DNA of 45,895 bases, from assembly GCA_021324135.1 (NCBI GenBank), contig JAJPJO010000075.1, forward strand, positions 1-45,895. The letters are read 5' to 3'. This DNA is from Pseudomonadota bacterium (GTDB lineage Bacteria > Cyanobacteriota > Vampirovibrionia > Obscuribacterales > Obscuribacteraceae). The notes beneath the pieces were generated by a model, which ran no database searches, had not been told where the DNA came from, and saw only the letters and a list, made by a program, of their open reading frames with translations. Of the stretch, positions 2,958 to 42,713 are shown one piece after another. The position numbers were made by a program, and so were the translations under genes. How positions within the stretch are numbered: position 1 is the first letter of the stretch; every line of letters starts with the position of its first letter.

Positions 2958-3265
2958 TTGCCTCAGCTGATTGTTGCCGACAAGGGATAAATCAGGCGCC
3001 TGTCTATCAGGTCTGATGAATAACCCTGATGTGGTATTTCCATAAGATTTTAGCGATGCATAATTGAGAGATGAACCCGAATGGGAGTTTACCAGACGCT
3101 CGCCTTCCTATAATCATCCTCAAGGCGGTGAAAACGTCCAGCTTTCATATTAGATCTCCAACTCCTCATCATAAAGAGAAGAATATATTGCCACTGGGTA
3201 AGAGGTTTCTAGTAAGGGCGGATCATTTAGTAGCTCAATTTACAGGTGAGATTTCATCAAAGCGC
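2958..3265. other. Divergent intergenic region between metalloprotease and kinase genes
   Basis: 308 gene-free bases separating divergently transcribed genes, so promoters for both should lie here. I see a repeated hexamer ATCAGG at 2991-2996 and 3006-3011, and its inverse CCTGAT at 3025-3030, giving a possible operator (3006-3011 with 3025-3030). I see no convincing -35/-10 pair on either strand. The open frame extending upstream of the kinase start to 3071 is probably not translated (see the kinase entry). Confidence 0.4.
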
Positions 3266-4939: not shown

Positions 4940-4948
4940 GGAATTCAA

Positions 4949-13481: not shown

Positions 13482-13498
13482 GCTCTACTCACGCTCGC

Positions 13499-15937
13499 CT
13501 ATTTGTTTCTGTATTGCTTTGCTTCATTCGCCGAGCCCGATCTCTCTAATTCCCGCGCTAACCATTCGCTTGTATCTTTCTGCAGGTAACTTTTCATACC
13601 GTACAATTTACCCAGTTGCAGCGCTTCCTTAAGATAGGCAATGGCGATAGTGTTCTTGCCCACGGAAGCGGCGCACCGACCTGCCTGGCAGTATGCCAAA
13701 ATGAGACTGTCATGAAGCAATTTGGTGCTCACTGAGTTTCTCATGCTCGCGCATTTGGCAAGAACGGCGATCGCCTCTTGATTAATTTTCAACGCCTCAG
13801 ACTTGTTCCCGCTCCTTTCTTCGCTCTCCGCCCAGGTAACCAGGCAGGCGCCGTAGCGCGGTGAATCCTTGCCTTCCTTTTCCTCGACTATGGCGATGGC
13901 TTCCTTGTGAAGGGGGTAGGCCTGCGCGTATTCGCCTGCCGCTGCCAAATGTGCCCCTAAACTTCCCAGTGGCTCAACCAGGCTCAATGAGCCTGGAGCG
14001 ACGAGGCTCCGCAAGACCGCGAGCGCTTCTCTTTGATCGGCAATGACAGCGCTGCGATTTGAAAGTGCTTGCTCGACCTGGGCTCGTTTTCGCAAGGCAT
14101 CGACGAGGTGCTTTTTGTTGCCATGCTCTCGCGCTATTGCCGTTATGCGATTGCTGATCTTGAGGGCTTCATCGAATTTTCCGATCCCTAAATCGATATT
14201 GGTCCAAAGCATAAGAGCCTGATGCAGAGCCGGCGAGTCAGCTCCCTGCGCCTTTTCGATCAAGGCGATAACATGTTTTGTCCTGGCGATCGCTTCGGTT
14301 TTTTTTCCCTGGCTCAGGAACTCGCCGGCTCGATAAAATTCCTGCTTCGTACTTGGTGGACCTTCGCCGTACATCTCAACAAACGGCATGCTCTGACGTA
14401 GTTCGTTCATACCTTCTTTGGAAATTTTAGTGTCCCTGAGGTCTAGCCTTTCCAGAGTCGGTATCGACTTGATCGTCCTTATAGATCGATCGGTCACAGG
14501 CGTACTCTTTATGGAGAGCGATCGCAAGCTCTTCAAGCTCAGCAAATTCTCCAGCGATTTATCGTCAATCTCGGTTTCGCCTGCATCGATCATTTCCAAA
14601 TTGGGCAGAAGCGGCAGGGTCTGGAATGTTTTGACTTGCGTCGCCTTGACGCTCAGCCAATTTACAGGAGAGTCGCAAAAGTTCTTGAGCCCACGATCGC
14701 TCACCGGGTCGTGGGTTAAATCAACGATCTCGGCATATTTATAGCCCTTGAAACAGGCCAGGTCGGAATCGGTCAAGATGAAATTCTTGAGCATGAGCCT
14801 TTCGGCTCGCTGATTGATTAAGATCTGCACGCACTTCTTAGCGGTTTCGGATAATTTCTCGGAGGAAGGATCATAAGCAGGCTTGGCAGGGTTTGGGGCT
14901 TCCGGCACTGTGCCCGACCATTTCAGGGTGGCAATCACACCAATGACGAAAATGATTGATACCAGAAGTAGTGCCAGGGCAGGTTTAAACAGGCGAGCGG
15001 ACTGCTGAGGTGTCACCATATGCGGTGGCACCACCGGGTTGCTTTCTTCTGATTCATCCCCTTCCTGCGGCAATAAATCGAGAATCTGCTTCAGCTGCTC
15101 CCCGACTTCTGCCATTGAGGAAAAACGCCCTGCAGGATCCGGATCGAGCAATATGCTGAAAATATCGTCCAGCGCCTCGGGCCAGTCTTTGTCACTTACA
15201 GATGAAAGCAAAGGAGGCTGATCGCGGCTTCGAGCCGTGATTGCCTCGAGCAAGGTCTCAGCCGCAAAGGGAGGCTGGCCTGTAAGCGTCTCGAAGAGAA
15301 CGCAGCCGAAGGAGTATTGATCGGATGCCGCTGTCACCTCTTCGCCGCCGGCTTGCTCAGGACTCATATAGAGCGGACTGCCGATCATCTGCCCTTTCCC
15401 GGTTAGTTCTTGCTCCTCGCCCTTATCAAGGGCAATCTTGGCGACACCGAAGTCGACCAGGACAGGAGTGTAGAGATCATGTTCCTTTTCGAGCATGATG
15501 TTGCTCGGCTTTATATCTCTGTGTATAACGCCGCTCTGATGCGCGTGCGCAAGTGCATCAGCGATCTGAATGAATATTTCAAGCAGAGCAGCGCTCGAAA
15601 TTAGTTGGCATTCTCCGCTTTCAATCAGGCGCTCCAGCGTCGTTCCCTCTATATATTCAATTGAGATGAAAGGCTGGGCCGCCGACAGCTCGCCGAAGTC
15701 ATAAACCTTGGCTATGTTCGGGTGGTTTAAACGGCTAAGGGCTTTGGCTTCCTGTTGAAACCTGATCAGATATTTGCCCTGCTGGAACGAGTAAACCGAT
15801 ATGAGTTTCAAGGCTACCGTGCGCAGAAGCACCTGGTCTTCGGCTTTATACAGGGCACCCATACCACCGACGGCAATTTTTTCGATAATCTTGTAGCGAT
15901 TCAGCAGTATCGTATTTGGTTCTAGTTCCACTGCCAC
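13499..15937 (-). CDS. Receptor-like Ser/Thr kinase, middle paralogue of three
   Basis: 812 residues with the same order of parts as its neighbours: kinase about 12-290 (IAVGGMGALY, Lys44, HRDIKPSN at 139-146, DFG 162-164, SPEQ), membrane helix about 317-340, LRR-like repeats about 385-520 (e.g. LLPNLEMIDAGETEIDD, LKSLRSLSIKSTPVTD), and TPRs about 540-805. All catalytic residues are intact. The start codon is GTG at 15937. A second GTG at 15931 would give MELEPNT, matching the MELQPGS start of the next paralogue exactly, with GAG 8 nt upstream, so either may be used. It lies 62 nt after the preceding kinase gene. Predicted membrane signalling kinase with the repeats outside the cytoplasm. Confidence 0.9.
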   Translation of the reverse strand: MAVELEPNTILLNRYKIIEKIAVGGMGALYKAEDQVLLRTVALKLISVYSFQQGKYLIRFQQEAKALSRLNHPNIAKVYDFGELSAAQPFISIEYIEGTTLERLIESGECQLISSAALLEIFIQIADALAHAHQSGVIHRDIKPSNIMLEKEHDLYTPVLVDFGVAKIALDKGEEQELTGKGQMIGSPLYMSPEQAGGEEVTAASDQYSFGCVLFETLTGQPPFAAETLLEAITARSRDQPPLLSSVSDKDWPEALDDIFSILLDPDPAGRFSSMAEVGEQLKQILDLLPQEGDESEESNPVVPPHMVTPQQSARLFKPALALLLVSIIFVIGVIATLKWSGTVPEAPNPAKPAYDPSSEKLSETAKKCVQILINQRAERLMLKNFILTDSDLACFKGYKYAEIVDLTHDPVSDRGLKNFCDSPVNWLSVKATQVKTFQTLPLLPNLEMIDAGETEIDDKSLENLLSLKSLRSLSIKSTPVTDRSIRTIKSIPTLERLDLRDTKISKEGMNELRQSMPFVEMYGEGPPSTKQEFYRAGEFLSQGKKTEAIARTKHVIALIEKAQGADSPALHQALMLWTNIDLGIGKFDEALKISNRITAIAREHGNKKHLVDALRKRAQVEQALSNRSAVIADQREALAVLRSLVAPGSLSLVEPLGSLGAHLAAAGEYAQAYPLHKEAIAIVEEKEGKDSPRYGACLVTWAESEERSGNKSEALKINQEAIAVLAKCASMRNSVSTKLLHDSLILAYCQAGRCAASVGKNTIAIAYLKEALQLGKLYGMKSYLQKDTSEWLARELERSGSANEAKQYRNK

Positions 15938-15999
15938 AACTCATGATTCAATCGACTGGAGGAAACGGTTTTGGTTTCTCAATTCAGTTTACATCAGAC

Positions 16000-18417
16000 C
16001 TATTGATAATTTTTTGCTTCATTTTTTCGGCCGAGCCTGTCGAGCGCCACGACCAGTAACTTTTTCATACTTTCCGCCCGCTTGTCGGCATAACCGTAGT
16101 CTCGGTAAGTGCTCAGACCCTGCTCTAATGCCGTGACAGCCTTCTCATTTTCATTTGCGGCAAGCCGGCACATGCCGAGTTTGAGGTAGGCCGCGCAAAG
16201 CACATTACCTTCGCCCTTTCTTTCCAATTTGTGCTTCTCCTCGATGGCAGCCACTTTCTCGAATTTAGTGATTGCCGCTCCATAGCGACCCGCCTCGCGA
16301 TCCGCCTCAGCCCAGATGATCAATGTGCTGGCATATACGTGTGAATCTTCGCCATAGAGGACTTTGCCAATCGCCAGGGCATGCTTGCACGTGTCGATAC
16401 ACTCAGGCAGTTGGCGGGCGATCAACAAATGGTTGGCGAGATGGCTCAGACACATGCAAAGATACTTGCTGTTCGGCACATCGCACTTCTGCAAAAGAGA
16501 GATAGCCTGCCGGGCTGTTAGTATAGCTTCTGAACTGCGTCGTTGTTCGCCGAGCAAGCGCAGCTTTTCTAAAAGAAGCGAGCATTGCATGTGCGTATCG
16601 CCATACTGACGCGATATAGCGAGCCCGCGCTCGATCGTGCGCTCGGCATCGGTCTGCTGTTTGAGTTGAACATAACATGTGGCCATAGGTTGCAGCATGT
16701 AGCAGACTGCGATTGAATCCGGACCTTGAACGCGCTCCACTGCAATGAGAGCCTGCCTGAGCAGAGGCAGGGCTCTGGCATAAGAGCCCGAGCCGGTCAG
16801 CTTCTCGGCTTCTTTCAAAAGTCGCGCTGCAGGCGGAGCCTGGCCCGGCAATACATGACAAAGCGGCAGACTCTTGCGCAGTTCCGCTCGAGATGACTCT
16901 GAAAGATCGAGTGTCACCGTGCGCAACTTAGGCATCTGCTTCAAATATTTGATTGAACGATCGGTAATGCAGGTTCGCTGCAATAAGATCTGCTGAAGCA
17001 TCTTCAGACGAACCAGCCTTGCTATGGAAGCATCGTCAACATCAGAGCCGCCAAGATCGAGATTTTCCAGATCCTTCATCTGCGAAACGACTTCTAGAGG
17101 CTTTACTGGATCGCCCTTCAATGAAAGGTTTCTGATTGGTGAGTCGAGCAAATAGCGCATGTCTTGATCTGATACGCCGCTCGTCTCAAGGTCGACGTCC
17201 AGAGCGTCTTTATATCCCTTCAGAGGTGCCAGGGACTGGCCCATACAAGCTCTGAGATTAAGCTTGGATGCGTGGCTGTCCATCAATTTTTTGAGATAAG
17301 TATTCTCCATCGCGCCATTGCTGGGTTCGGTATCGTTAATAGATGTGGCTCTCTGCACCGCCTGATGGGGCAGCCTGGGCGGAATAAGAATGGCCGATGC
17401 GACAAGGCAAGCGGCGATAATTGCAGCCAGGGGAATAACCGGCCTGAGCCATGATTTTGTTTGCGGACGCGATTTTTCTTGCGAAGAATCGCTGAACGTG
17501 ACCGGCACCGCATTTGATGGCGGGGCCGCCGCATCTGAATCAAGTTCGTCGCTGCTCAACGACTCGCAGATCGCAACTAGAGCCTGGCAGGCTTCTTGCA
17601 TGTTGGAAAAACGGTTCTCCGCCTGTTTGCACAGCAATTTTGCCAGCACCATCTGTAGTGGCGCCAGTCGCTGATCATCGCTCAGCGCAGACAGGTCTAC
17701 CTCGGACTGAGCGCGATGCATGGCCAGCGTTTCCACAATCGTTTCACCCACGTAGGGCGGCTCGCCTGTCAATACTTCATGGAGAACGCAGCCGAGCGAA
17801 TACTGGTCGGAGGCGGCGGTGATCGCCCCACCGCCCGCTTGCTCAGGACTCATATATAAGGGACTGCCGACGATGTTCCCGGTGGAGGTCAAATGCTGCT
17901 CGCGATACAGATCGTCCAGTTTGGCAACACCAAAGTCGAGCAAGACGGGGAAATAACCCTCCTCATCGTTTCTCAACATGATATTGCTGGGTTTTATATC
18001 GCGATGAATTACGCCTTCTTGATGGGCGTGCGCCAGAGCATCGCAAAGCTGTATGAAGATTTCGAGGACTTCAACGAGCTCCAGATGCTCTTTTTCATTT
18101 ATGCTTGCCTGAAGGGTTTTCCCGTCCACAAATTCCATGACCAGGAAGAGATCATTGCCGTCCAATTCGCCAAAATCAAAAACTTTGGCAATATTGGGAT
18201 GGTTGAGGCGGCTCGAGGCCCGAGCCTCGTTTTGAAAACGCATTACAGCTGTGCTGTCGAATGAGGCACCCTTCGATATGACTTTCAATATGACCGGGCG
18301 CAAGAGCGTCAGGTCGTCAGCTTTGTAAATCGAGCCCATGCCGCCTTTGCCGATCTTCTCGGTTATCTTGTAACGAGAGAAAATAATTCGGCCTGGCTCG
18401 AGCTCGCTTGCTTTCAT
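16000..18417 (-). CDS. Receptor-like Ser/Thr kinase, first paralogue of three
   Basis: 805 residues. Kinase domain about 14-290 with IGKGGMGSIY, Lys45, HRDIKPSN (138-145), DFG (161-163), SPEQ and DQYSLGCVLHE. Membrane helix about 325-346. LRR-like repeats about 390-520 (e.g. MKDLENLDLGGSDVDDASIA, IKYLKQMPKLRTVTL). TPRs about 540-800 (e.g. SYARALPLLRQALIAVE and YGAAITKFEKVAAIEEKH). I start at ATG 18417, giving MKASELEPG, which matches the paralogues. An ATG at 18441 would add MSRCRRCE but overlaps gshB by 23 nt. With the chosen start there is one base between the gshB stop and this ATG, and no good Shine-Dalgarno, which points to translational coupling to glutathione synthetase. Confidence 0.9.
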   Translation of the reverse strand: MKASELEPGRIIFSRYKITEKIGKGGMGSIYKADDLTLLRPVILKVISKGASFDSTAVMRFQNEARASSRLNHPNIAKVFDFGELDGNDLFLVMEFVDGKTLQASINEKEHLELVEVLEIFIQLCDALAHAHQEGVIHRDIKPSNIMLRNDEEGYFPVLLDFGVAKLDDLYREQHLTSTGNIVGSPLYMSPEQAGGGAITAASDQYSLGCVLHEVLTGEPPYVGETIVETLAMHRAQSEVDLSALSDDQRLAPLQMVLAKLLCKQAENRFSNMQEACQALVAICESLSSDELDSDAAAPPSNAVPVTFSDSSQEKSRPQTKSWLRPVIPLAAIIAACLVASAILIPPRLPHQAVQRATSINDTEPSNGAMENTYLKKLMDSHASKLNLRACMGQSLAPLKGYKDALDVDLETSGVSDQDMRYLLDSPIRNLSLKGDPVKPLEVVSQMKDLENLDLGGSDVDDASIARLVRLKMLQQILLQRTCITDRSIKYLKQMPKLRTVTLDLSESSRAELRKSLPLCHVLPGQAPPAARLLKEAEKLTGSGSYARALPLLRQALIAVERVQGPDSIAVCYMLQPMATCYVQLKQQTDAERTIERGLAISRQYGDTHMQCSLLLEKLRLLGEQRRSSEAILTARQAISLLQKCDVPNSKYLCMCLSHLANHLLIARQLPECIDTCKHALAIGKVLYGEDSHVYASTLIIWAEADREAGRYGAAITKFEKVAAIEEKHKLERKGEGNVLCAAYLKLGMCRLAANENEKAVTALEQGLSTYRDYGYADKRAESMKKLLVVALDRLGRKNEAKNYQ

Positions 18418-18418
18418 T

Positions 18419-19465
18419 TCACAACGTCGACATCTCGACATTACAGAAATTGCGCCGATAGAATTTCATGTAATCGACCTTTTGCTCGACTGCGTCGATC
18501 ACGGCTTGCGAGAAATTGACGCCTTCGAAACGCTGCGCGTTCAACAAACCGCCTGGGCTGAAGACGTTGATCTCCATCAGTTTATTGCCGACAATGTCGA
18601 GTCCGACGAGGAACATCCCGTCCTGAACGAGCTTCGGCCGCACCATTTTGCAAAGCTCGAGCGCTTCATCGCCAATCACCGCCGCCTCCACGCTGCCTCC
18701 GGCATGGACGTTGCTGCGCATGTCTCCCTCAGCGCCGCGCCGGCGGAAGGCTGCGTACTTGCCTTTATATCTGAGCGGCTGCCCGTTCATCATGAATAAA
18801 CGAACGTCACCTTTGGATGCCTCCGGGAGATACTCCTGGCAGATTATGTATCCTTCCTTGCTGAGTGAGTCGATGATCTGGCTCAGGTTGGACATATCTT
18901 GTGGTGTGACGAGGAAAACACCTTTGCCGCCCGAGCCTTGCAGCGGCTTTAAAACCATTCTGTCGCCCAGTTCTCTGGCGAATTCTCTTATCTTCTTCCG
19001 GTTGCGCGTGATCAACGTGCGCGGTCGAACTTCCTCAGGAAATGTTTGGAAGTACATCTTATTGCGCGCTTTGGCAAGACCGTTCGGATCATTGAGCACA
19101 ATGGCGCCATGCTTCATCGCCACCCGACCGAAGTCGATGCCGACACTTTGCGCCCAATCCCGCCTGCCGATTTCATCTGAGGGATCACTTCGCAAAAGGA
19201 GCACATCAAGATCGTCCACGACAATCTCCTCGACAATTGCTCTTGGTCCGCGCAAGTCATTTAGATATGAAGCGGCGCTCTTGTACATTTTCTTAGGAGC
19301 ATGGCGGGCGATCGCTTTCACTTTGTCGTCGCGGTCGTAGATGAAATCCTCGGCGCTGATCACCCAGGCCTCGTGCCCGCGATTGATGGCTACCATGGCC
19401 AATTGATTGGTCGTGTAAGTGACCTTCTCCGTTTGTACGTCGTTGATGAAAAAGGCGATGCGCAT
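18419..19465 (-). CDS. gshB: Glutathione synthetase-like ATP-grasp ligase
   Basis: 348 residues, slightly longer than typical bacterial GshB (about 315). It should join gamma-glutamylcysteine and glycine with ATP in the cytoplasm. Family motifs are visible in order: LLLRSDPSDE, VLNDPNGLAKARNKMYF, MVLKPLQGSGGKGVFLV (ATP-grasp Lys and glycine loop), CQEYLPEASKGDVRLFMMNG, GDMRSNVHAGGS, and EINVFSPGGL near the C-terminus. No gshA (glutamate-cysteine ligase) is in the window, so a related ligase activity on another substrate cannot be excluded. It is the first gene of the run of kinases on this strand, with one base to the next start. Start ATG 19465 with a weak AGAAG upstream. Confidence 0.85.
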   Translation of the reverse strand: MRIAFFINDVQTEKVTYTTNQLAMVAINRGHEAWVISAEDFIYDRDDKVKAIARHAPKKMYKSAASYLNDLRGPRAIVEEIVVDDLDVLLLRSDPSDEIGRRDWAQSVGIDFGRVAMKHGAIVLNDPNGLAKARNKMYFQTFPEEVRPRTLITRNRKKIREFARELGDRMVLKPLQGSGGKGVFLVTPQDMSNLSQIIDSLSKEGYIICQEYLPEASKGDVRLFMMNGQPLRYKGKYAAFRRRGAEGDMRSNVHAGGSVEAAVIGDEALELCKMVRPKLVQDGMFLVGLDIVGNKLMEINVFSPGGLLNAQRFEGVNFSQAVIDAVEQKVDYMKFYRRNFCNVEMSTL

Positions 19466-26761: not shown

Positions 26762-28171
26762 GTGGACAAATACAACAAGCAGAATGAGGCCGCTTTACTG
26801 CACGATGCCACTGTTTCACCTCGCGATGACCGCTTCGATCGCGGCAAAGCATTGCGTGCGGCCATTCCGTGGACCGATCATGCCGGTTGGAACAAACCGG
26901 CCGATAGAGTCGATCCGCTCGATTTGCTCGAGGAATCAAACCGCGGCCGATTGAAAGAGTTGATTCCCCTGCGCTGGGGACGCATGTCGGTTTCGCCCTT
27001 CACATTCTTCAGAGGAGCTGCCGCTCTAATGGCCGCCGATTTGAAGGATACTGCCTCGACGCGGGTTTACGTTCAGGCCTGCGGTGATTGTCACTTGCTG
27101 AACTTCGGAGCATTTGCCACGCCGGAGAGGAACATCGCTTTCGACTTGAATGATTTTGATGAGACATTGCCGGCGCCGTGGGAGTGGGATTTGAAGCGCC
27201 TGGCGGTCAGCTTTGTTTTAGCCAGCCGAGAAAACCAGCTCAAAGCCAAGTTTGAGACCGGCGCCGTGACAGCGCTTTGCTCGGCTTATCGAGAGAAAAT
27301 GGCCGAATACTCGAAGATGAGCATCCTCGACATCTGGTATGACCGCATTGATTGGCAGCACGTGATCAAGAATACCGACAGGGATACGCTGAAGAACCAG
27401 CGCACGCAACTTTTGAAAAAAGCGCAAAAGCGCAACAGTGAATACTACTTTCCCAAGCTCGTCGATAAGAAGCAGGACGGTTACATTATCAAGGATGCTC
27501 CGCCGACCATTTATCATGTCGACGATTTTGACGGACTGCAGTTCAAGCCGGCTGTGCAAGCGGCTCTCGAGACATACGCCGCATCCCTGCAGGAGGATAA
27601 ACGGCGATTGTTCTCGCGCTATCGTTTTGTCGACACGGCAATTAAAGTTGTCGGTGTCGGCAGCGTCGGCACGACATGCGTCGTCATCCTCATGCTCGCG
27701 CCTGATGACGAGCCGCTTTTCTTGCAAATGAAAGAAGCGCGCCAATCGGTGCTCGAGCCTTATGCAGGCAAGAGCGCTTTCGAGAATCGCGGGCAGAGAG
27801 TGGTTGAGGGACAGCGCATCATCCAGTCGGCCAGCGACATTTTCCTCGGTTGGACCGAGTTTGACAATGGCAAACACTTCTACATTCGCCAGCTTCGTGA
27901 TACAAAAATAAAATTGCAGCCGGAATTCTGGGACGGGGACACGATGATCGAAATGGCTGAGATCATGGGGGCGGTCCTCGCTAAGGCGCATGCGCGCTCA
28001 GGTGATTCCGCCGTAATCAGCGGTTACCTCGGAAAGGATGACGCTGAATTCGATGAAGCCATTGCTGATTTTGCATTGACATACACCAATCAGGTGGAAC
28101 GAGATCATGCATTGCTCGCCCAGGCAATCAAATCAGGCAGGATAAAGGCGATTATCGAGAGTGATGATTAG
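26762..28171 (+). CDS. DUF2252 family protein (kinase-like motifs, function unknown)
   Basis: 469 residues, full length for DUF2252. Family features are clear: LIPLRWGRMSVSPFTFFRGA, then YVQACGDCHLLNFGAFATPE, then FDLNDFDETLPAPWEWDLKR, and the later DTAIKVVGVGSVGT. The GDCHLLNFG and DFD motifs resemble the catalytic GDxxxxN and metal-binding IDFD of aminoglycoside/choline kinase folds, so a phosphotransferase-like activity is conceivable, but none is established to my knowledge. No membrane helix. GTG 26762 has a strong GAGGTGGGG upstream. Its last 8 bases overlap the first histidine kinase gene (ATG 28164), so the two are translationally coupled and probably act together. Confidence 0.88.
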   Translation: MDKYNKQNEAALLHDATVSPRDDRFDRGKALRAAIPWTDHAGWNKPADRVDPLDLLEESNRGRLKELIPLRWGRMSVSPFTFFRGAAALMAADLKDTASTRVYVQACGDCHLLNFGAFATPERNIAFDLNDFDETLPAPWEWDLKRLAVSFVLASRENQLKAKFETGAVTALCSAYREKMAEYSKMSILDIWYDRIDWQHVIKNTDRDTLKNQRTQLLKKAQKRNSEYYFPKLVDKKQDGYIIKDAPPTIYHVDDFDGLQFKPAVQAALETYAASLQEDKRRLFSRYRFVDTAIKVVGVGSVGTTCVVILMLAPDDEPLFLQMKEARQSVLEPYAGKSAFENRGQRVVEGQRIIQSASDIFLGWTEFDNGKHFYIRQLRDTKIKLQPEFWDGDTMIEMAEIMGAVLAKAHARSGDSAVISGYLGKDDAEFDEAIADFALTYTNQVERDHALLAQAIKSGRIKAIIESDD

Positions 28172-29990
28172 CTTCACGCGGCAAATCGCCTTAGTTGTTC
28201 TGGTTCCGCTTTTTATTGAGCTCTACTTTCTCTTCGCGCTGCTCGGCACTCTGGCTGAGGTGCAGAAGGAGAGAAAGGCCGAGAGCGTTTCAATCAAGTC
28301 GCTTGCCGCTATAAATCTCGTCTTGAATGATGTAGTCAAATGCGGCAATCTGCTTTTGTTCCACCAACAAACTGCCGAGCAAGAAATGGCTATTGAAGCC
28401 AATTTTTTAGGCTTGATCGATCACACCAATCAATTGAAGGGTCTTTTGAGGGAAGAGAAACTTCGATCCTCGAAGATTCGATTCCTGGTTGCGGCGCTGG
28501 ATAAGCTGATCGACACCTGCCAGGACATGGAGCATTCAGACCTTGATAATCTCATGATTCGCGGCCCCGTGATCGGCAACATGGCAGTGCAAATCAATCA
28601 AGCCGGGGCGCTGGCCATTGAGGATGAAACGGCCACCCGCGCTCGCCACACAAATTTGCGGAGAAAACACGAGACTGAGCTGGAGGATATAGTCCGCAAA
28701 GGTTCATTGGGCACGCTGGCGATTGCCACGATCTTAGGCGGCTGTTTGCTCTGGCGCTTTTCATTTGCCCTGGGACGCTTGATGGATAACACAAAGAGGA
28801 TCGAATCGAAAAGGAAATTGCTGCCCACGCTGCGCGGTTATGACGAGCTGGCGCGATTGGATCGCTCAATCCATCAATTGGCCGATGAGCTGCAACGGCG
28901 CAGCGAGAGGGAACGCGCCTTGATGGATCATGCTGCCTTAATTCTATGTTCTTGCTCTGAGGATTTCTTGATTCTCGAGGTGAACGCCTTTGCTCAAAGC
29001 ATGCTCGGTTATGCTCCAGGTGAGATGACCAAACTGTCGCTTCAAGACATTGTTCAGGACGATCAACTGGACGAGTTCAACCACCACATGGCTGAGTGCC
29101 GGCGCACCGGAGCGGCGGCAATTTTTGAGAGTGCCATTGTGGCAAGCACCAACATATCAATATCATGCGAAATTACCGCTCAATGGTCGGTAGAACGGCA
29201 GGAATTTCAGCTCTCCATTCAAGACATAAGAGCGCGTCGTGAATCCGAGCGCGTGAAGGAAGAGCTCATGCAAGTGGTCAGCCAGGATTTGCGATGGCCA
29301 CTGATGGCTATTCATCGCAATCTCGATAGGATAAACAGCAAAGACCTCGGTGAGCTCAACGAGCGCGGGCAACGTCTTTTGAAAACGGCAACCTACTCGG
29401 TTTCCTCTTTGATGTCGCTTGTCGATGATCTCCTCGACATAGAGCAGCTTGAGTCAGGCATCTCGCTGTCGTATAGCCGGGCGCGAGCGCGCACTCTTCT
29501 GGAGCAGGCCGCTGACCTGGTCAGAGGCGTAGCCGAGAAAAAGCAATTGCAAATTACCATAGCCGGCGACGACGCGGAGCTGGAGGTGGATGCCGATCGG
29601 CTTGTTCGGGTTTTGGTAAACCTGCTGGGCAATGCCGTTAAATTCTCGCCCGAGGGCGGCTGCATTCGATGCTCCGCTCGCCTGGTGTCACAAGAGAATG
29701 GTACCGATGGCGGTGCGGCAGAAATTGAATTCCGGGTCGCCGATCAAGGTCCGGGCATACCCGAGGAGAAGCGCCAGACCATATTTGAAAAATTCAAGCA
29801 GGCCGGATTAGGCGGCGAAGGAGAAAAATCCGGAAGCGGCCTCGGCCTGGCAATCTGCAAAGCGATTATTGAAGCTCACGACGGACTGATAGGTGTCGAA
29901 AGCGATGAATCAGGCGGCTCGACATTCTGGTTTCGAGTTGCTCTGGCGGGCAGGAAAGCCCCCCAGTCGGGTGCCAACGTTTTTAGTTGA
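28164..29990 (+). CDS. Membrane PAS-type histidine kinase lacking the phospho-accepting His (Gln instead)
   Basis: 608 residues: membrane helix about 8-31, periplasmic sensor of about 150 residues, second helix about 182-204, linker, PAS-like domain about 250-355, dimerisation (HisKA) region about 365-430, ATPase domain about 470-595. The H-box reads VVSQDLRWPL, where SHELRTPL is expected: the His is Gln374 (CAG at 29283-29285). ATP-binding boxes are intact: LLGNAVKFSPEGG (N), DQGPGIPE (G1), FEKFKQ (F), GSGLGLAICKAI (G2). It should bind ATP but cannot autophosphorylate in the normal way. ATG 28164, in GAGAGTG ATG, overlaps DUF2252; a GTG at 28161 is adjacent. The next gene is its paralogue, 9 nt downstream. 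Confidence 0.88.
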   Translation: MISFTRQIALVVLVPLFIELYFLFALLGTLAEVQKERKAESVSIKSLAAINLVLNDVVKCGNLLLFHQQTAEQEMAIEANFLGLIDHTNQLKGLLREEKLRSSKIRFLVAALDKLIDTCQDMEHSDLDNLMIRGPVIGNMAVQINQAGALAIEDETATRARHTNLRRKHETELEDIVRKGSLGTLAIATILGGCLLWRFSFALGRLMDNTKRIESKRKLLPTLRGYDELARLDRSIHQLADELQRRSERERALMDHAALILCSCSEDFLILEVNAFAQSMLGYAPGEMTKLSLQDIVQDDQLDEFNHHMAECRRTGAAAIFESAIVASTNISISCEITAQWSVERQEFQLSIQDIRARRESERVKEELMQVVSQDLRWPLMAIHRNLDRINSKDLGELNERGQRLLKTATYSVSSLMSLVDDLLDIEQLESGISLSYSRARARTLLEQAADLVRGVAEKKQLQITIAGDDAELEVDADRLVRVLVNLLGNAVKFSPEGGCIRCSARLVSQENGTDGGAAEIEFRVADQGPGIPEEKRQTIFEKFKQAGLGGEGEKSGSGLGLAICKAIIEAHDGLIGVESDESGGSTFWFRVALAGRKAPQSGANVFS

Positions 29991-29999
29991 GGTAAAAGA

Positions 30000-31772
30000 G
30001 TGCCTGGAATACTCGGGACTAAACAGAAAATTCTTTTGTTGATCGCCATGCCTCTCGCGATGCAGCTTTTCTTCGTCATGACACTGTTGAGCGAGCTCTC
30101 GGAAATAGGTAAGGCGCGCTCAGATGAGACGCGGACCATTGAAGTGCTCGCTGCTTTGAACACGGTGACCAACGATTTCCTCTCATGCGGCTGTGTTTTG
30201 ATGTTTCAACCCAAAGGCGCTGCTCTTCCTTTAAATTACGAACGATTGCTTGATGATAGCGATCATCTGAAACGCATCTTGCTCGATGTGAAGGGAAAAG
30301 AGAGCTCACCAAATCTGATGGCGTTCATCAAGACGTTGAACGATTTTACCTCGGCATGCTCGGGCACGGAGGTATTCAGCATGAGGCAACTACACAGCTT
30401 TGGTCTGACAAATGCGGCCAAGGATTCGTCATGGCGCATAACGCAGGCAGGTGAATTAGCTATTGATGAGCAGTCGAAGATTCGCGACAAACAAGTGGAT
30501 GAGTGCGTTTCTCGAGAGGAAGAATTGAAGCAGACAACTCTCTTTGCCAGCAGCTCGACAATCGTTATGGCCCTGATCGCTATCCTTTATATGGCAATGG
30601 ACGTCGGGCGCAAATTTCGAACGCTCATGAAAAATACCGAGCGCATCTCATCTGGAGAACCTCTTTTGCCGGCATTGAAAGGTGGCGACGAGCTCGTCAG
30701 CCTTGATGCATTGTTGCATGAACTATCGGCTCGACTGCAAAGCGCCCGCGAGCGCGAACGCGCCCTGATCGAAAGCAGCGTCATGGTGATCTGCTCGCTC
30801 GATCAGGACCTGCGGCTCATCGAGATCAGCAAAGCGGTCGAGCGTCTGCTTGGCGTTCATGCCAGCGAATTGGACGGCGAATCTTTGTTCGCTCTTATTC
30901 ATCCTGAGGAGAAGCAGGAGGCGCTGAAGAGTTTTTCCAATTGCAAAGACTCGTCCGGGCCATGCACTTTCCAGTTACGTCTGCTTGCTAAGAAGAAGAA
31001 GACAATTTACACGGGTTGGACGGCGCAATGGTCGAGCGAGCAGTCCGCCTTTTTTTGCGTAGTGGAGGATATGTCTAAAAGACATGCCGCCGAAACGGCG
31101 AAAGCTGAAATCTACGCCATGGTCAGCCACGATCTGAGATCGCCGTTATCCTCGATGCTCGTCAGTCTCGATATGATGTCGCAGCCGATGTCCGGCTCTT
31201 TGAGAGCGGAAGGAACGGAATTGCTCGATGAATCTCGTCGCTCGATTCAGTCCTTGATTACGCTGATAAACGATCTAGTCGATTTTGAGCGCTTTCAATC
31301 CGGCGCCTACGAGCTCGATTTGCAAATAGCCCGTTTGAGAAACCTGATTGAGGAAACAATCGAAAGAGCACAAAAGGTTGCTGCCAATAAGGGCGTTGAA
31401 ATAGCTCTGCAGTGCGAAGAGCTCGATATTCGAGCCGACACTCATCAGCTTGCCAGAGCTCTGGCAATTCTGCTCAGAAACGGAATTGCACGCTCGCCTG
31501 CAGGAAGCAAAATCAAAATAGAGGCAGTTAAGCGAGTTATATCCGGGCGGCCGCATGTTGAATTTCGCTGCCAGGATTTCGGCAAGCGCCTCTCGGGAGC
31601 GGCGGCGCTTGATTTATTTTCAAGCGCCAATCAGAGCCACGAACAAGCAGAGGAATTGAGCCGTTTCAGCTTGCCGCTGCTCAAAGCGATCGTCGAGGCG
31701 CACAGCGGCGAAGTCGGCTTGGACTCCTCACCGCACGGGCTGACATCGATCTGGTTGCGAATCCCGCTCTAG
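30000..31772 (+). CDS. Membrane PAS-type histidine kinase with intact His but degenerate ATP-binding domain
   Basis: 590 residues, paralogous to the preceding kinase. Helix about 10-32, periplasmic sensor, helix about 180-200, PAS-like about 255-358, HisKA about 368-432. The H-box MVSHDLRSPLSSML has the phospho-accepting His377 (CAC at 31128-31130). In the ATPase domain (about 475-590) the N-box Asn494 survives (LLRNGIARSPAG), but G1 reads CQDFGKRLSG instead of DxGxGI and the G2 glycines are gone (ELSRFSLPLLKAIVEAHSG). ATP binding is therefore doubtful. The neighbouring kinase could phosphorylate this His in trans. Start is GTG 30000 with GAGG seven bases upstream. Converges with the next gene, 41 nt between stops. 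Confidence 0.87.
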   Translation: MPGILGTKQKILLLIAMPLAMQLFFVMTLLSELSEIGKARSDETRTIEVLAALNTVTNDFLSCGCVLMFQPKGAALPLNYERLLDDSDHLKRILLDVKGKESSPNLMAFIKTLNDFTSACSGTEVFSMRQLHSFGLTNAAKDSSWRITQAGELAIDEQSKIRDKQVDECVSREEELKQTTLFASSSTIVMALIAILYMAMDVGRKFRTLMKNTERISSGEPLLPALKGGDELVSLDALLHELSARLQSARERERALIESSVMVICSLDQDLRLIEISKAVERLLGVHASELDGESLFALIHPEEKQEALKSFSNCKDSSGPCTFQLRLLAKKKKTIYTGWTAQWSSEQSAFFCVVEDMSKRHAAETAKAEIYAMVSHDLRSPLSSMLVSLDMMSQPMSGSLRAEGTELLDESRRSIQSLITLINDLVDFERFQSGAYELDLQIARLRNLIEETIERAQKVAANKGVEIALQCEELDIRADTHQLARALAILLRNGIARSPAGSKIKIEAVKRVISGRPHVEFRCQDFGKRLSGAAALDLFSSANQSHEQAEELSRFSLPLLKAIVEAHSGEVGLDSSPHGLTSIWLRIPL

Positions 31773-31813: not shown

Positions 31814-33916
31814 TTATGGTGATTTTGCCGAGGGGATTTCGAACCAGAAGGTCGATCCGGATTGATCGCTTCCCGTCGTTACTCCGATCTCACCGCCGTG
31901 CTGCTCGACGATGGCTTTGGCGATTGCCAGGCCTAATCCCGTTCCGCCCCGAGATCTTTCATCGCGTGATGAGCCTTGTTGAAAACGATCGAAGAGTTTA
32001 TCAACCTCATCCTCAGGAATGCCCGGACCTTGATCTTGCACTTCGAATCTGCATCTGCCGAATTGCTCTGAGACAACGATTGTCACGACGCCCTTTTCGG
32101 GTGACCACTTGATGGCGTTGGAGAGAAGATTGGTGAGAACTTGTTGCAGACGGTCTTGATCGGCAATGACGCGCGTCGTGGGCTCCATGCTCTTCTCTAC
32201 GGTGACGTTGGCTTGCTGGCTGAGTGATTCCAAACTGCTGACGGCGGTATTGACGATTTCGTGCGGATCGAGTTTGCGCAGCTTCAAGTCGAGTTTGCCG
32301 GCCTCCATTTTGCGGATATCGAGTATGTCGTTGATCAAGCGGATCAGCCTGTCCGCCTCTTTGGAGGCGATGTCTAAAACCGGTTTGGCCTTGGAGCCCA
32401 TTTCAGTCAGAAAGGAATTCTCCATGATACCGAGTGCGGTGCGAATAGCGGTAAGGGGGGTGCGCAACTCGTGCGAAACGGTCGAGTAAAATTCTTTCAC
32501 TCGCTGCTCGGCAGCCTTTCGCTCCGTGATATCGCGCACGATACCAGTAAAAATCTGCTGATTGCCGAGTTTGATAACGCTGAGCGACACCTCGACAGGG
32601 ACTTTGTCGCCGCTTTTCTTGATGCCGTAAAATTCGCGGCCCACTCCGAAGACTCGCCTTTCGCCGGTGCGCATCGGGCTGTCTTTGCCGGGCTTTTCTC
32701 CGCCTGACAAAAGCGACGGCAAGATGATGTTCACATCCTGTCCGATCAGCTCCGAGGATTCCAGATCGAGCATGCGTTCGAGCGCCGGGTTGACGGACTC
32801 GATTGATCCGTCCGAGTTGACCGTTATGATACCGTCGGGAGCGGTATCGAATATGGCGCGCATACGCGCCTCCCGCTCGGCTACTGCTTCTTCTGCCTTG
32901 ACGCGCTCGGTAATGTCGCGCGCTTCGGCAATCAGGAAAACAACATTGCCATCTTCTTCTTTGATCGGCTTAATTGAAAAATCGACTGTGGCTCTGCCTT
33001 CTTTGCCCTCGACTTCCGATTCGAAGCGCACCATTTCTCCCTCGGATGCCTTACTCACCGCTGATTTGAGCCGCTCCTGCACTGCTTGCGAGTAAGACCA
33101 CCAGGGCGTTTCCCAGAAGGGGCGATCTTTGACGGAGCTCATGTCGACGCGCGCGAAATCCAGCGCCGATTGATTGGCTTCCAGTACGTGCCCATCGTTC
33201 GACAACAAACCGCTGAACTGAAAGGTCTGGTTGAAAACGGCTCTGAATCTGCGTTCGGCATTGCGCAGGGAGAGCTCGGCGCGCTGTCTTTCATTGACAT
33301 ACTTGTTGACCACGGCGATCACAACAACAAGTATTATCAATGCCAGAGACATGAGAAGAGTGATGCCTGCGACCGTCTGGTATGTGAGCCGGTCGAGCTC
33401 GCTTGCTCTGAGCTGGAACTCGACGTCGGCTTGATTGCCCAGCTCGTCCACCATGACTTCGATGTGTTTGGTAACCATATCCTCGCCAAGCTGCCGGCCG
33501 TGCTGAACGGCCGCCTCGCTGCCTTTAGTGCGCTCAAGCGCCATCACTTCATCGGAGCACTCCGTGCGCACGCGAATATAGTCGCGAATCTCATCGGCCA
33601 GCATGCGATGTTTGCCGCGCAGCCGCATGTCGAGCTCTTCCACGAGTCGATCGAGCCGCTTCTTTTCGGCGTCATATACCTGAACATAGCGCTCATCGCC
33701 TGAATAGACGAAAGAATGCTCGGCGCCTTGCAGCTGCGCCAGTGAGTACTTAACTTCTTTGAGCACCGTCAATACCGACAGTCTCTGTTGCGAGAGGTTT
33801 GTATCCTCGAGCCGGCGGAAGCATTGACCAACCGATATCATGCCGATGTGCACGAGAAGAACCACCGTGACACCGATGGCAATTGTCGTCATTGTGGTCA
33901 GCGACATTTTTCTCAT
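31814..33916 (-). CDS. CHASE3-PAS-PAS sensor histidine kinase, catalytically complete
   Basis: 700 residues: membrane helix about 9-30, CHASE3-type periplasmic domain about 38-180 (QGAEHSFVYSGDERYVQVYD), helix about 190-214, PAS domains about 222-345 and 350-475 each ending in ARDITER/VRDITER, HisKA with VSHELRTPL (His482), ATPase with LLSNAIKWSPE, DQGPGIPEDE, FDRFQQ and GGTGLGLAIAKAI. All boxes are normal, unlike the two kinases on the opposite strand. It should autophosphorylate and pass phosphate to the OmpR-type regulator encoded 51 nt upstream. ATG 33916 chosen; an in-frame ATG lies three codons inside. Signal unknown. Confidence 0.92.
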   Translation of the reverse strand: MRKMSLTTMTTIAIGVTVVLLVHIGMISVGQCFRRLEDTNLSQQRLSVLTVLKEVKYSLAQLQGAEHSFVYSGDERYVQVYDAEKKRLDRLVEELDMRLRGKHRMLADEIRDYIRVRTECSDEVMALERTKGSEAAVQHGRQLGEDMVTKHIEVMVDELGNQADVEFQLRASELDRLTYQTVAGITLLMSLALIILVVVIAVVNKYVNERQRAELSLRNAERRFRAVFNQTFQFSGLLSNDGHVLEANQSALDFARVDMSSVKDRPFWETPWWSYSQAVQERLKSAVSKASEGEMVRFESEVEGKEGRATVDFSIKPIKEEDGNVVFLIAEARDITERVKAEEAVAEREARMRAIFDTAPDGIITVNSDGSIESVNPALERMLDLESSELIGQDVNIILPSLLSGGEKPGKDSPMRTGERRVFGVGREFYGIKKSGDKVPVEVSLSVIKLGNQQIFTGIVRDITERKAAEQRVKEFYSTVSHELRTPLTAIRTALGIMENSFLTEMGSKAKPVLDIASKEADRLIRLINDILDIRKMEAGKLDLKLRKLDPHEIVNTAVSSLESLSQQANVTVEKSMEPTTRVIADQDRLQQVLTNLLSNAIKWSPEKGVVTIVVSEQFGRCRFEVQDQGPGIPEDEVDKLFDRFQQGSSRDERSRGGTGLGLAIAKAIVEQHGGEIGVTTGSDQSGSTFWFEIPSAKSP

Positions 33917-33967: not shown

Positions 33968-34642
33968 TTAGTTGTGATCGACAATGCGATAACCTTGCCC
34001 TCGCTTCGTCTTGATTATGCTTTCACCTTCATCACCCAGCTTCTTGCGAAGCGTCTTCATATGGGTCCGCACCGTATCGATCGAAGCAGAAGAATCGCTG
34101 TCCCAGACTCGATCGAGTATGGCCTCGAGTGAAAAACTCTGGTTCGGATAACGCATGAGGAGCTCGAGCAAACTGAACTCTTTTGCAGTCAGCTCGATCT
34201 CCAATCCATTCCTGGTGACCACACCACTGGCGGTGTCAAGCTCTATATCGGCCACGCTCAATCTTTTGCCCATGTAGCTTGGCGGTCTGCGCAAGAGGGC
34301 GTTGACTCGCGCATCCAGTTCGGTGGGATGGAAGGGTTTGACGAGATAATCGTCGGCGCCGGCATTCAGTCCGGCGGCCTTATCCTCGACGGTGCCCTTG
34401 GCCGTTAGCATGAGAACCGGCACCTTGCCGTTCGACGATCTGTACTGCCTGCAGACCTCAACGCCCGCCAGATCAGGCAACATCCAATCAAGGATAATCA
34501 GGTCGTACGAATTGCAACGCAGCTGGACAAGAGCGTCCAGACCCTTGCGCGCCACATCGACCAGGTGCCGCGTCTGCTCGAGCTGCATCTTGAGCAGGTA
34601 CGCCAGACTGTCGTCATCTTCTACAAGGAGAATCTTTGCCAT
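33968..34642 (-). CDS. OmpR/PhoB-family response regulator
   Basis: 224 residues. Receiver domain about 1-115 with the acidic pair in LLVEDDDS, phosphorylation site Asp52 (LIILDWMLP), Thr80 (LMLTAKG) and Lys102 (YLVKPF). Winged-helix DNA-binding domain about 128-222 with LTAKEFSLLELLM, SIDTVRTHMKTLRKKL and IKTKRGQGYRI, the OmpR/PhoB type. It controls transcription after phosphorylation, most simply by the adjacent CHASE3 kinase. It is the only response regulator in the window, so the two complementary histidine kinases may also feed it. ATG 34642 gives the standard MAKILLVEDD start; an upstream GTG at 34684 would add 14 residues with no counterpart. Shine-Dalgarno weak. Confidence 0.93.
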   Translation of the reverse strand: MAKILLVEDDDSLAYLLKMQLEQTRHLVDVARKGLDALVQLRCNSYDLIILDWMLPDLAGVEVCRQYRSSNGKVPVLMLTAKGTVEDKAAGLNAGADDYLVKPFHPTELDARVNALLRRPPSYMGKRLSVADIELDTASGVVTRNGLEIELTAKEFSLLELLMRYPNQSFSLEAILDRVWDSDSSASIDTVRTHMKTLRKKLGDEGESIIKTKRGQGYRIVDHN

Positions 34643-34719
34643 AAAAATCGAAATTTCAACCAGAGGAGGTAAAGAGCCGAGCACAGGCTTCAGCCATAAG
34701 TCTATATGCCTCGAAACTC

Positions 34720-40442: not shown

Positions 40443-42713
40443 GTGATGGCAATTTCTACAGTAGAAAAAGACGAGAGGATAATGCCTTATGGTGACCATG
40501 CCTCGGCGCTGGCACTGTGGTGGAAAGTCATATTTCTTTTGCCGCTCTGGGGCATTATCCCCGCTTGCATTATCGGTGCCATAGCCACGCGCCTGGGCCC
40601 GGCGGCGACTGAAATTGGCTTGCTGTTCGTCATGTTTCTCGGCGTCGCCTATTTCATAGAAGATGTCTTGAAGCGCAAAGTGAAAGTCAGCGACGGCACG
40701 CTCTACTTCGGTTACAAAAAGCTCAATTTGAGCCAATTGAAATCGCTGGGGGTATCCTACGAGGACAACAAGCTCATCCCGCGCGATCTTTTGTTCGTTT
40801 TTCAAAATGGCTATCAATTCTTCCTGGAGCTATCGCGGATTGACGCTGACGATGTTCAATACATCGTTAAACTGGTCGACAACCGCTATCCCCACTGCAC
40901 GGTCGATCCCACCCTGCGGACATTGGCTCGCTGTCAGGAACTGAAGCCGAAGTTAGCCACCGCCCTGAGCGATGCCGCCGAGCTTCCTTATCATTCAAAC
41001 AAGGTCCTGGTCGAGTCGATACGCGGATTCATGTCCATGTTCCGGAGCTGGTCGAGGTTAGGACCGGCTCTTGCCTTCGTTGCCTTTGCGCCCGTCTGGA
41101 TGCTCGCCTGCCTGGGCGAATTTTCTATTTTTAAAATGGCAGGAGCGGTGAACAATCAGACATTTCTGGAGCAGTGCTCGCGCGGTCTGAGTTCGGTCTA
41201 CAACCAGATCGGTACATTAATCTCGCACGGCATAGACGCCTTCTCTAATGCCGCTCAAAATCCGGTTGTAGGCACCATTTGCTGTATTGTCAGCATCGCT
41301 CTTCTGATCGAAGTGCTGAAGAAAATCGGGCCGAGTCTGATCGTCCTCGACGAGACCGGCGTTCATCTCTTCCACGCCTTCAAGCGCGTGCGGATGAAAT
41401 CACAATTCTTTCCCTGGGCATTCTTTGCCAAGGCAGAGCTCCTGCGTCCTTCGCAGGATACACACCCGGAGGAATGGAAAATCGTTTTGACTTTTACACA
41501 GTCGGCGGCCGGCTCGGGAAGTAAAAATCTGGTTCTGGAATACAACGCGCTTGAACCAAAGGGGCGGGCTGAGTTGCTTGAGCGTCTCAAACATTTTGCT
41601 CCAAAATGCCAGATCGATCCGGAGTTGACTGAAGCCTTGCTGCCCAAACAGCAGGCAAGTTACACAGAACTCTGGTTACAATCACTCTCAAGCTCACCCA
41701 AACGCGACAATCTCGATCCGCTCGAGCCAGGCGATTTGCTGCAAGATGGGCGTTTCGAGGTGCTCTACAAACTTGGCGTCGGCGGTCAGGGAGCTGCCTA
41801 TCTCTGCCGCGAAAATTCAATCATCGATCGGCAGCACTGTCAGGAATTGGTTTTAAAGGAGACGATTTTTCCTATATTTGTAGATGACACGGTCAGACGA
41901 CAATCATTGGAACGATTCGAGCATGAGGCAAAAACGCTGAACGCTCTCAATCACGAGCATATAGTCAAACTCAGCCAATATTTCGTAGAAGATCATCGCG
42001 GCTACCTCGTCCTCGAGCACATCGAGGGAAAGAATCTGCGAGATCTGAGCGCTAAAAAACCGATGCATGAAAGAGAAGTGCTGGAGCTTGCATTGCAGAT
42101 GTGCGACATGCTCGAATATCTGCATGGACAAGGGGTTCTACACCGCGATTTCACGCCGGACAATCTCATTCTGGAGATAAGCGGCAAGCTCAAGCTGATC
42201 GATTTCAACGTTGCCCAGACCGAGTCAACCGGCATGACTGGAACGGTTGTCGGTAAACACGCCTATGTCCCGCCTGAGCAATTCCGCGGCAAGCCGGTCT
42301 TCGCAAGCGACATCTATGCGATGGGCTGTACTCTTTATCACTTGCTGTCCGGTCACGATCCCGAGCCGATCACGCCATCGATAATTGAAAAGGATCGATC
42401 CGATATCAGCACCAGATTCAGTGCCATCATCAAGAAGTGCACCCATTTGAAGGCGGCCCATCGCTATGAGACCGTTAAGGAGTTGAGGGCGGATTTGAGC
42501 GAGGCTCTGATGGAGATATCAGGCGAAAGCACCCTGCAAGACCACGAAGAATGCAACGGTGCAGGAGACGGCGCTCGCCAGGGAACGAACGAGACCGGCT
42601 TGCCAGTTGGCGAGGCGGTCAATGAATCGATTGCAGGCGAAGCCTGTACCATCAAGTTGAAGGAGAAGGAAAAGGAAAAGGTGCCTGCCGGGAATCAGGC
42701 GGAGGAAGCATAG
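40443..42713 (+). CDS. Polytopic membrane Ser/Thr kinase with two membrane/PH-like modules and DFN motif
   Basis: 756 residues. Two copies of a unit made of a hydrophobic pair and a soluble beta-rich part: helices about 23-48 and 55-73 with KVSDGTLYFGYKKLNL, then helices about 206-226 and 275-293 with IVLDETGVHLFHAFKRV; the latter parts read like bacterial PH domains. Kinase about 436-700: LGVGGQGAAYL, Lys472, HRDFTPDN (567-574), then DFN (587-589) where DFG is expected, PPEQF and DIYAMGCTLYHLL. A Lys/Glu-rich tail (KLKEKEKEK) ends it. Activity is plausible, but the missing DFG glycine is notable. Start GTG 40443 (AGGG seven bases upstream) or ATG 40446. Followed immediately by its paralogue. 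Confidence 0.85.
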   Translation: MMAISTVEKDERIMPYGDHASALALWWKVIFLLPLWGIIPACIIGAIATRLGPAATEIGLLFVMFLGVAYFIEDVLKRKVKVSDGTLYFGYKKLNLSQLKSLGVSYEDNKLIPRDLLFVFQNGYQFFLELSRIDADDVQYIVKLVDNRYPHCTVDPTLRTLARCQELKPKLATALSDAAELPYHSNKVLVESIRGFMSMFRSWSRLGPALAFVAFAPVWMLACLGEFSIFKMAGAVNNQTFLEQCSRGLSSVYNQIGTLISHGIDAFSNAAQNPVVGTICCIVSIALLIEVLKKIGPSLIVLDETGVHLFHAFKRVRMKSQFFPWAFFAKAELLRPSQDTHPEEWKIVLTFTQSAAGSGSKNLVLEYNALEPKGRAELLERLKHFAPKCQIDPELTEALLPKQQASYTELWLQSLSSSPKRDNLDPLEPGDLLQDGRFEVLYKLGVGGQGAAYLCRENSIIDRQHCQELVLKETIFPIFVDDTVRRQSLERFEHEAKTLNALNHEHIVKLSQYFVEDHRGYLVLEHIEGKNLRDLSAKKPMHEREVLELALQMCDMLEYLHGQGVLHRDFTPDNLILEISGKLKLIDFNVAQTESTGMTGTVVGKHAYVPPEQFRGKPVFASDIYAMGCTLYHLLSGHDPEPITPSIIEKDRSDISTRFSAIIKKCTHLKAAHRYETVKELRADLSEALMEISGESTLQDHEECNGAGDGARQGTNETGLPVGEAVNESIAGEACTIKLKEKEKEKVPAGNQAEEA

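Follow-up and report, generated by a model that had tools for sequence, protein, structure and literature searches.

Two adjacent sensor kinases with complementary catalytic losses as putative halves of one histidine kinase, and the recurrence of such pairs within a bacterial family

DivL and RetS are well-known examples of pseudokinases or inhibitory kinases, and Mycobacterium tuberculosis encodes two incomplete kinases, Rv0600c and Rv0601c, together with one OmpR-type regulator, TcrA. These two proteins cooperate with TcrA (PMC9274095). Trans-phosphorylation in mixed dimers has been established for mutants of NtrB and CheA (see references in PMC5956149), and two natural systems divide the catalytic work between proteins. 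In Rhodobacter sphaeroides, one operon encodes CheA3 and CheA4, with ATP binding on one protein and the phospho-acceptor function on the other, and neither autophosphorylates alone; their origin has been described as duplication plus loss, the acceptor acts as a phosphatase too, and the system has been singled out as unique in its partitioning (PMC3591291; PMC10782961). The adjacent sensor kinases FasB and FasC of group A Streptococcus formed heterodimers and no homodimers in two-hybrid tests, and the acceptor His was needed in FasC (H246), while the kinase domain was needed only in FasB (PMC12675982). The split-kinase principle is therefore already known, since CheA3/CheA4 and FasB/FasC precede the present case; our searches of the open-licence PMC literature returned no description of complementary kinases from Obscuribacterales.

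The locus described here lies in a window of 45,895 nt (the whole stretch of DNA that was analyzed) and holds two kinase genes, HK1 and HK2 (Table 1). The ORF coordinates bore out the first-pass annotation, which had placed the two in tandem, 9 nt apart; HK1 starts at either GTG 28161 or ATG 28164. Both proteins have a common layout of two transmembrane (TM) segments flanking a sensor region, followed by a HAMP-like linker, PAS, HisKA (DHp) and HATPase_c (CA). The profile check that the annotation had recommended placed HisKA and HATPase_c above the Pfam gathering score in each protein, with 31.9 and 93.9 bits, respectively, in HK1, and with 45.9 and merely 32.3 bits in HK2. Reading the boxes, we likewise found what had been reported for HK1, namely a CAG-encoded Gln for the H-box His with intact N (VNLLGNAVKFSP), G1, F (IFEKFKQ) and G2 boxes, and for HK2, which keeps His377 beside a degenerate G1 and has no G2 glycines. 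The broader claim that HK2 lacks the ATP-binding boxes stood for the N-box Lys, the second G1 Gly and the G2 glycines, but not for the N-box Asn, which is still present (AILLRNGIARSP). The full catalytic residue set is thus found in neither polypeptide.

Table 1. Positions of the HK1–HK2 locus and its sequence features within the window.
Feature	Position	Strand	Description
DUF2252 protein gene	26762-28171	+	Opens the gene run and overlaps the HK1 start; Pfam DUF2252, 472 bits
HK1	28161-29990	+	609 aa; membrane PAS histidine kinase lacking the phospho-acceptor His but with an intact ATP site (putative donor half)
HK1 PAS domain	28899-29234	+	Residues 247-358; Pfam PAS matches below cut-off
HK1 H-box VSQDLRWPL	29277-29303	+	Gln375 (CAG, 29283-29285) replaces His
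HK1 N-box LVNLLGNAVKFSP	29613-29651	+	Intact
HK1 G1 box VADQGPGIP	29736-29762	+	Intact
HK1 G2 box SGSGLGLAICK	29829-29861	+	Intact
GAGG	29989-29992	+	Possible HK2 ribosome-binding site in the junction sequence, overlaps the HK1 stop codon
HK2	30000-31772	+	590 aa; membrane PAS histidine kinase with His377, ATP site dead (putative acceptor half)
HK2 H-box VSHDLRSPL	31122-31148	+	His377 (CAC, 31128-31130)
HK2 pseudo-ATPase domain	31422-31769	+	Residues ~475-590; HATPase fold retained in the AlphaFold2 model, ATP-lid stretch 533-552 disordered
HK2 G1 box CQDFGKRLS	31569-31595	+	Degenerate
HK2 G2 region ELSRFSLPLLK	31653-31685	+	Degenerate

Pfam gives PAS, HisKA and HATPase_c only, with no receiver domain and none of the Hpt, dimerisation and CheW-like domains of CheA in HK1 or HK2, and no named NCBIfam kinase family fits either protein, all scores being far below cut-off. 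The HK1–HK2 operon contains no response regulator; the nearest one (33968-34684) is found with an intact kinase (31814-33916) on the opposite strand to HK1–HK2. Elsewhere the 46-kb window encodes six large Ser/Thr protein kinases, arranged in two tandem groups (3071-6601 (+), 11028-18441 (-) and 40443-42713 (+)), two of the six with TPR repeats.

Like CheA3/CheA4, the HK1/HK2 locus and its orthologue described below divide the acceptor and ATP-binding functions between two proteins encoded together. CheA3 and CheA4, however, are chemotaxis kinases with Hpt (P1) whose domains are missing or deeply altered, whereas HK1 and HK2 are HisKA sensor kinases and point-degenerate full-length paralogues. 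The likeness to FasB/FasC lies in two adjacent sensor kinases with divided acceptor and kinase roles (PMC12675982); FasB differs in retaining candidate His residues, the Fas sensors have six TM segments and that system is the only one of its type reported, while HK1-type proteins have lost the His, and many pairs show the same losses. DivL and RetS are similarly degenerate histidine kinases that act via contact with another kinase or regulator, but without mutual complementary loss between neighbouring paralogues. Rv0600c and Rv0601c are truncated kinases, in contrast with the full-length paralogues of the window. A reduced locus elsewhere in the window's own genome (L250:5649-8889) resembles the Rv0600c/Rv0601c/TcrA set: its overlapping genes encode a 347-aa protein that has HisKA but no catalytic domain, a kinase lacking the His, and a regulator of the OmpR type.

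We compared the window's own genome (G000) with that of another genus of the same family (G023), where DUF2252, HK1′ and HK2′ follow in the same order, with identities of 73%, 44% and 39%. HK1′ has the H-box ISSDLRSPL and an intact ATP site, and HK2′ has VSHDLRSPL and a dead ATP site (N-box KTFLSHAIKRSP, G1 VEDFGEPLK, G2 AAASLRFVLCR). A normal His in the first protein or normal G1 and G2 boxes in the second, which the first-pass annotation had proposed looking for in orthologues, were therefore not what we found in G023, as its pair keeps both losses. The other nearest relatives (G001, G005, G012 and G022) are single kinases with every box intact. In the tree, HK1 groups with HK1′ (99) and HK2 with HK2′ (100); the two groups are sisters (98) nested in a clade of intact single kinases (100), which points to tandem duplication and complementary loss before G000 and G023 separated. 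As read from these sequences, the window pair is the product of a tandem duplication of an intact kinase, followed by complementary loss.

To see how far such pairs recur, we surveyed 50 genomes of the family for His-less H-box patterns, with similarity searches and one public-genome scan, and read all boxes with one profile. The family, one of uncultured bacteria, probably belongs to Obscuribacterales, since its nearest named matches are Candidatus Obscuribacterales, and it contains 19 adjacent complementary pairs and a probable twentieth across a contig break. Type A comprises the window and G023 pairs (n = 2). Type B pairs (n = 5; G000:C19, G023, G046, G047 and G001) have an ATP-dead protein of ~490 aa and then a His-less one of ~510 aa, and type C pairs (n = 6; G000:C559, G023 and four in G046) a His-less protein of ~725 aa and then an ATP-dead one of ~735 aa; for type C, Pfam detects only HATPase_c of the two kinase domains in one protein and only HisKA in its partner. 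Six further pairs fall outside these types (G003:C517, G015:C177, G048:C223, G050:C16, G000:C314 and L169, from a Candidatus Obscuribacterales MAG). The twentieth would be a type C pair (G000:C78/C157), considered probable because a gene with a membrane N-terminus follows the L016 kinase with a 4-nt overlap and the L265 protein is without its N-terminus, though we found no joining sequence overlap between the two contigs. In two genera, a type B pair sits directly 3′ of a gene for a large thioredoxin-like-domain protein (L355:263-3349 (+) and L358:8466-10916 (-)), and a functional link between that protein and the pair is possible. At L138:7604-12086 and L139:4627-9205, the pair's acceptor is lengthened at its N-terminus by a further membrane and sensor region, to 838-876 aa in total, so here the input regions of the subunits clearly differ.

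The same division occurs inside single polypeptides, in five fused double kinases. In L137 (G050, 1261 aa), core 1 has ISSDLRRPL and a live ATP site and core 2 has VSHDLRTPL and a dead one; the other four are from G054 (L143, L373), with core 2 clearly dead in two and partly decayed in two. Because fused relatives in G020 (L146, L147) have both cores intact, fusion appears to have come before the split in the L137 lineage. A structure model of the fused protein reached a pTM of 0.46, too uncertain for DHp packing or cis/trans geometry. At L146:4085-15530 (G020), three fused double kinases of ~1250-1310 aa, both cores intact, follow one another head-to-tail.

Quick trees, in which long-branch rows are unsure, placed the members of these pairs differently. 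The two G015:C177 proteins pair with one another (98). Each protein of the G003 pair has as its sister (99) a member of an intact G000 tandem pair (L026), those of G048 and G050 are divided between two clades, and the modules of L137 cluster with G020 fused kinases that have both cores intact. Two clades (100 each), sister to each other (82), contain the type C members, and type B donors and acceptors fall in separate clades. On these placements we count at least six independent origins (A, C, G003, G015, G048/G050 and fused L137), and probably more. In three half-way cases (L142 of G051; L148, fused, of G020; L368 of G015) one member is His-less beside an intact partner, which suggests that on the route to a split kinase the His may be lost before the ATP site. 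Exceptions were a His-less kinase whose 16-kb locus contains no neighbouring kinase (L135, G040), and L140, L141 and one L264 kinase, in which both functions are missing. The L141:7063-8094 (-) (G000) and L140:6872-7903 (+) (G023) proteins, of 343 aa each and with neither the His (VSSDLRSPL) nor ATP boxes, are found in both genera and are candidate conserved pseudokinases. Three kinases flagged as ATP-dead by a crude rule (L242, L264 5654-7642 and L276) were dropped, being N-x-G variants of G1 with G2 intact.

Whether the pairing exceeds expectation was assessed in a census of ~99 kinase modules of G000, retrieved by similarity to HK1 irrespective of the H-box. Its eight same-strand adjacent kinase pairs consisted of four intact/intact, four complementary and no other combinations. 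Four His-less live kinases had a neighbour that could be read, and each of them had an ATP-defective partner, as against none of 83 intact kinases; by simple counting this has a probability of 1/C(87,4), or ~4.5e-7, which becomes 1/70 when the eight adjacent pairs are taken as given. In a set of 121 modules, itself partly selected for His loss, all 10 ATP-dead modules adjoin or are fused with a His-less live one.

The residues kept by the two sides mirror each other. Comparing 21 His-less with 20 ATP-dead modules, we found the H-box His in 0/21 vs 20/20 and the H-box Arg in 11/21 vs 20/20; the N-box Asn and Lys, the G1 Asp, the second G1 Gly and the last G2 Gly were each present in 21/21 His-less modules, vs 4/20, 1/20, 8/20, 0/20 and 3/20, respectively, of the ATP-dead ones. 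All 20 acceptors have H-D/E-x-x-T/S (11 with T and 9 with S, HK2 among the latter), a position lost in most His-less partners. Across types A-C, mean pairwise identity of the catalytic domain was 0.59-0.69 among His-less proteins and 0.26-0.32 among ATP-dead ones, vs 0.62 in an intact control, and H-box identity among the ATP-dead partners was 0.96-1.00. Between G048 and G050, pN was 0.05 for the His-less CA, 0.07 for the acceptor DHp and 0.22 for the acceptor CA; synonymous sites were near saturation, which makes dN/dS ratios unusable, and we therefore kept only the pN contrast between domains. By this measure of sequence constraint, both genes are maintained, each conserved where its partner has decayed.

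The first-pass annotation had read the pair as an obligate heterodimer. That reading gained support from complementary losses that are kept in the orthologous pair and recur in independent pairs and fused kinases, and we consider it probable (roughly 0.83) that HK1 and HK2 are obligate halves of one histidine kinase, a mixed dimer working by trans-phosphorylation. HK1 and HK2 would assemble with each other, the catalytic domain of HK1 would bind ATP and phosphorylate His377 of HK2 in trans, and HK2 would hand the phosphoryl group to a partner response regulator; neither homodimer should be capable of autophosphorylation. We take the acceptor to be the response-regulator contact because the H-D/E-x-x-T/S surface is kept there, and HK2 may also carry a phosphatase function. 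Some kinases, such as MtrB, act in cis (PMC5956149), and cis action in HK1/HK2 would leave the pair silent. The sensor regions of HK1 and HK2 have diverged (29% identity), so two inputs are possible, and we retain as a hypothesis the AND gate on two sensors that had been suggested. Amin, Porter and Soyer described a split-kinase condition that permits ultrasensitivity and bistability (PMC3591291), and an acceptor-held phosphatase, if present here, would bring the pair under it.

A working mixed dimer could also have come about through neutral drift after duplication (constructive neutral evolution) with no added signal logic, an origin to which we give only slightly less than an even chance. 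It fits all of the sequence evidence, including the half-way pairs with His loss alone (L142, L148, L368), and in the modelling presented in PMC11066126 mutational bias alone suffices to turn homodimers into heterodimers after duplication. The recurrence of at least six origins and the spread of whole pairs (the four type C pairs of G046) suggest an advantage, although they are no proof of one. A more distant alternative casts HK2 as a modulator of the RetS or DivL kind and HK1 as a pseudokinase or scaffold in its own right, each bound to other kinases or regulators and with no phosphate exchanged between the two. The predicted kinase core of HK2 does resemble RetS (7n0e_B, TM 0.86) and DivL, a likeness of fold alone, but we regard this reading as improbable, since it leaves unpredicted the pairing of opposite losses, the strict conservation of the ATP site in His-less proteins and of the H-box in their partners, and the split inside fused proteins. 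Still less likely is that HK2 serves as a histidine phosphotransferase fed by the receiver of another, hybrid kinase, with HK1 acting elsewhere; ChpT- and Spo0B-type phosphotransferases do retain a bundle like that of DHp together with a degenerate ATPase domain, but receiver domains are absent from both HK1 and HK2, and the constant ATP-competent, His-less neighbour would go unexplained. Recent pseudogene decay or sequencing error in either gene can be excluded with near certainty, because even if the single-residue His loss of HK1 could in principle be an error, the syntenic G023 pair carries both losses, with Ser by a different codon, and both genes are open with domain-specific conservation.

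Seen as obligate halves of one kinase, HK1/HK2 and their relatives extend what had been a few single cases of natural split kinases by ~20 natural pairs from one family, which also supplies half-way intermediates, intact relatives and fused versions. Within the literature searched, the repeated origin in one lineage, the conservation across genera, the intermediates and the intramolecular versions appear to be new. Aligned, the pairs provide histidine-kinase work with a natural data set on separation of function, from which residues serving only the donor role or only the acceptor role could be told apart. They also make it possible to ask by what path a homodimer becomes an obligate heterodimer after duplication, and whether that step is adaptive (through two-signal gating or ultrasensitivity) or neutral. 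For the family itself, we lean towards the view that tandem and fused kinase duplicates have repeatedly been made into obligate asymmetric kinases, intramolecular heterodimers included, as a routine two-input or switch-like format.
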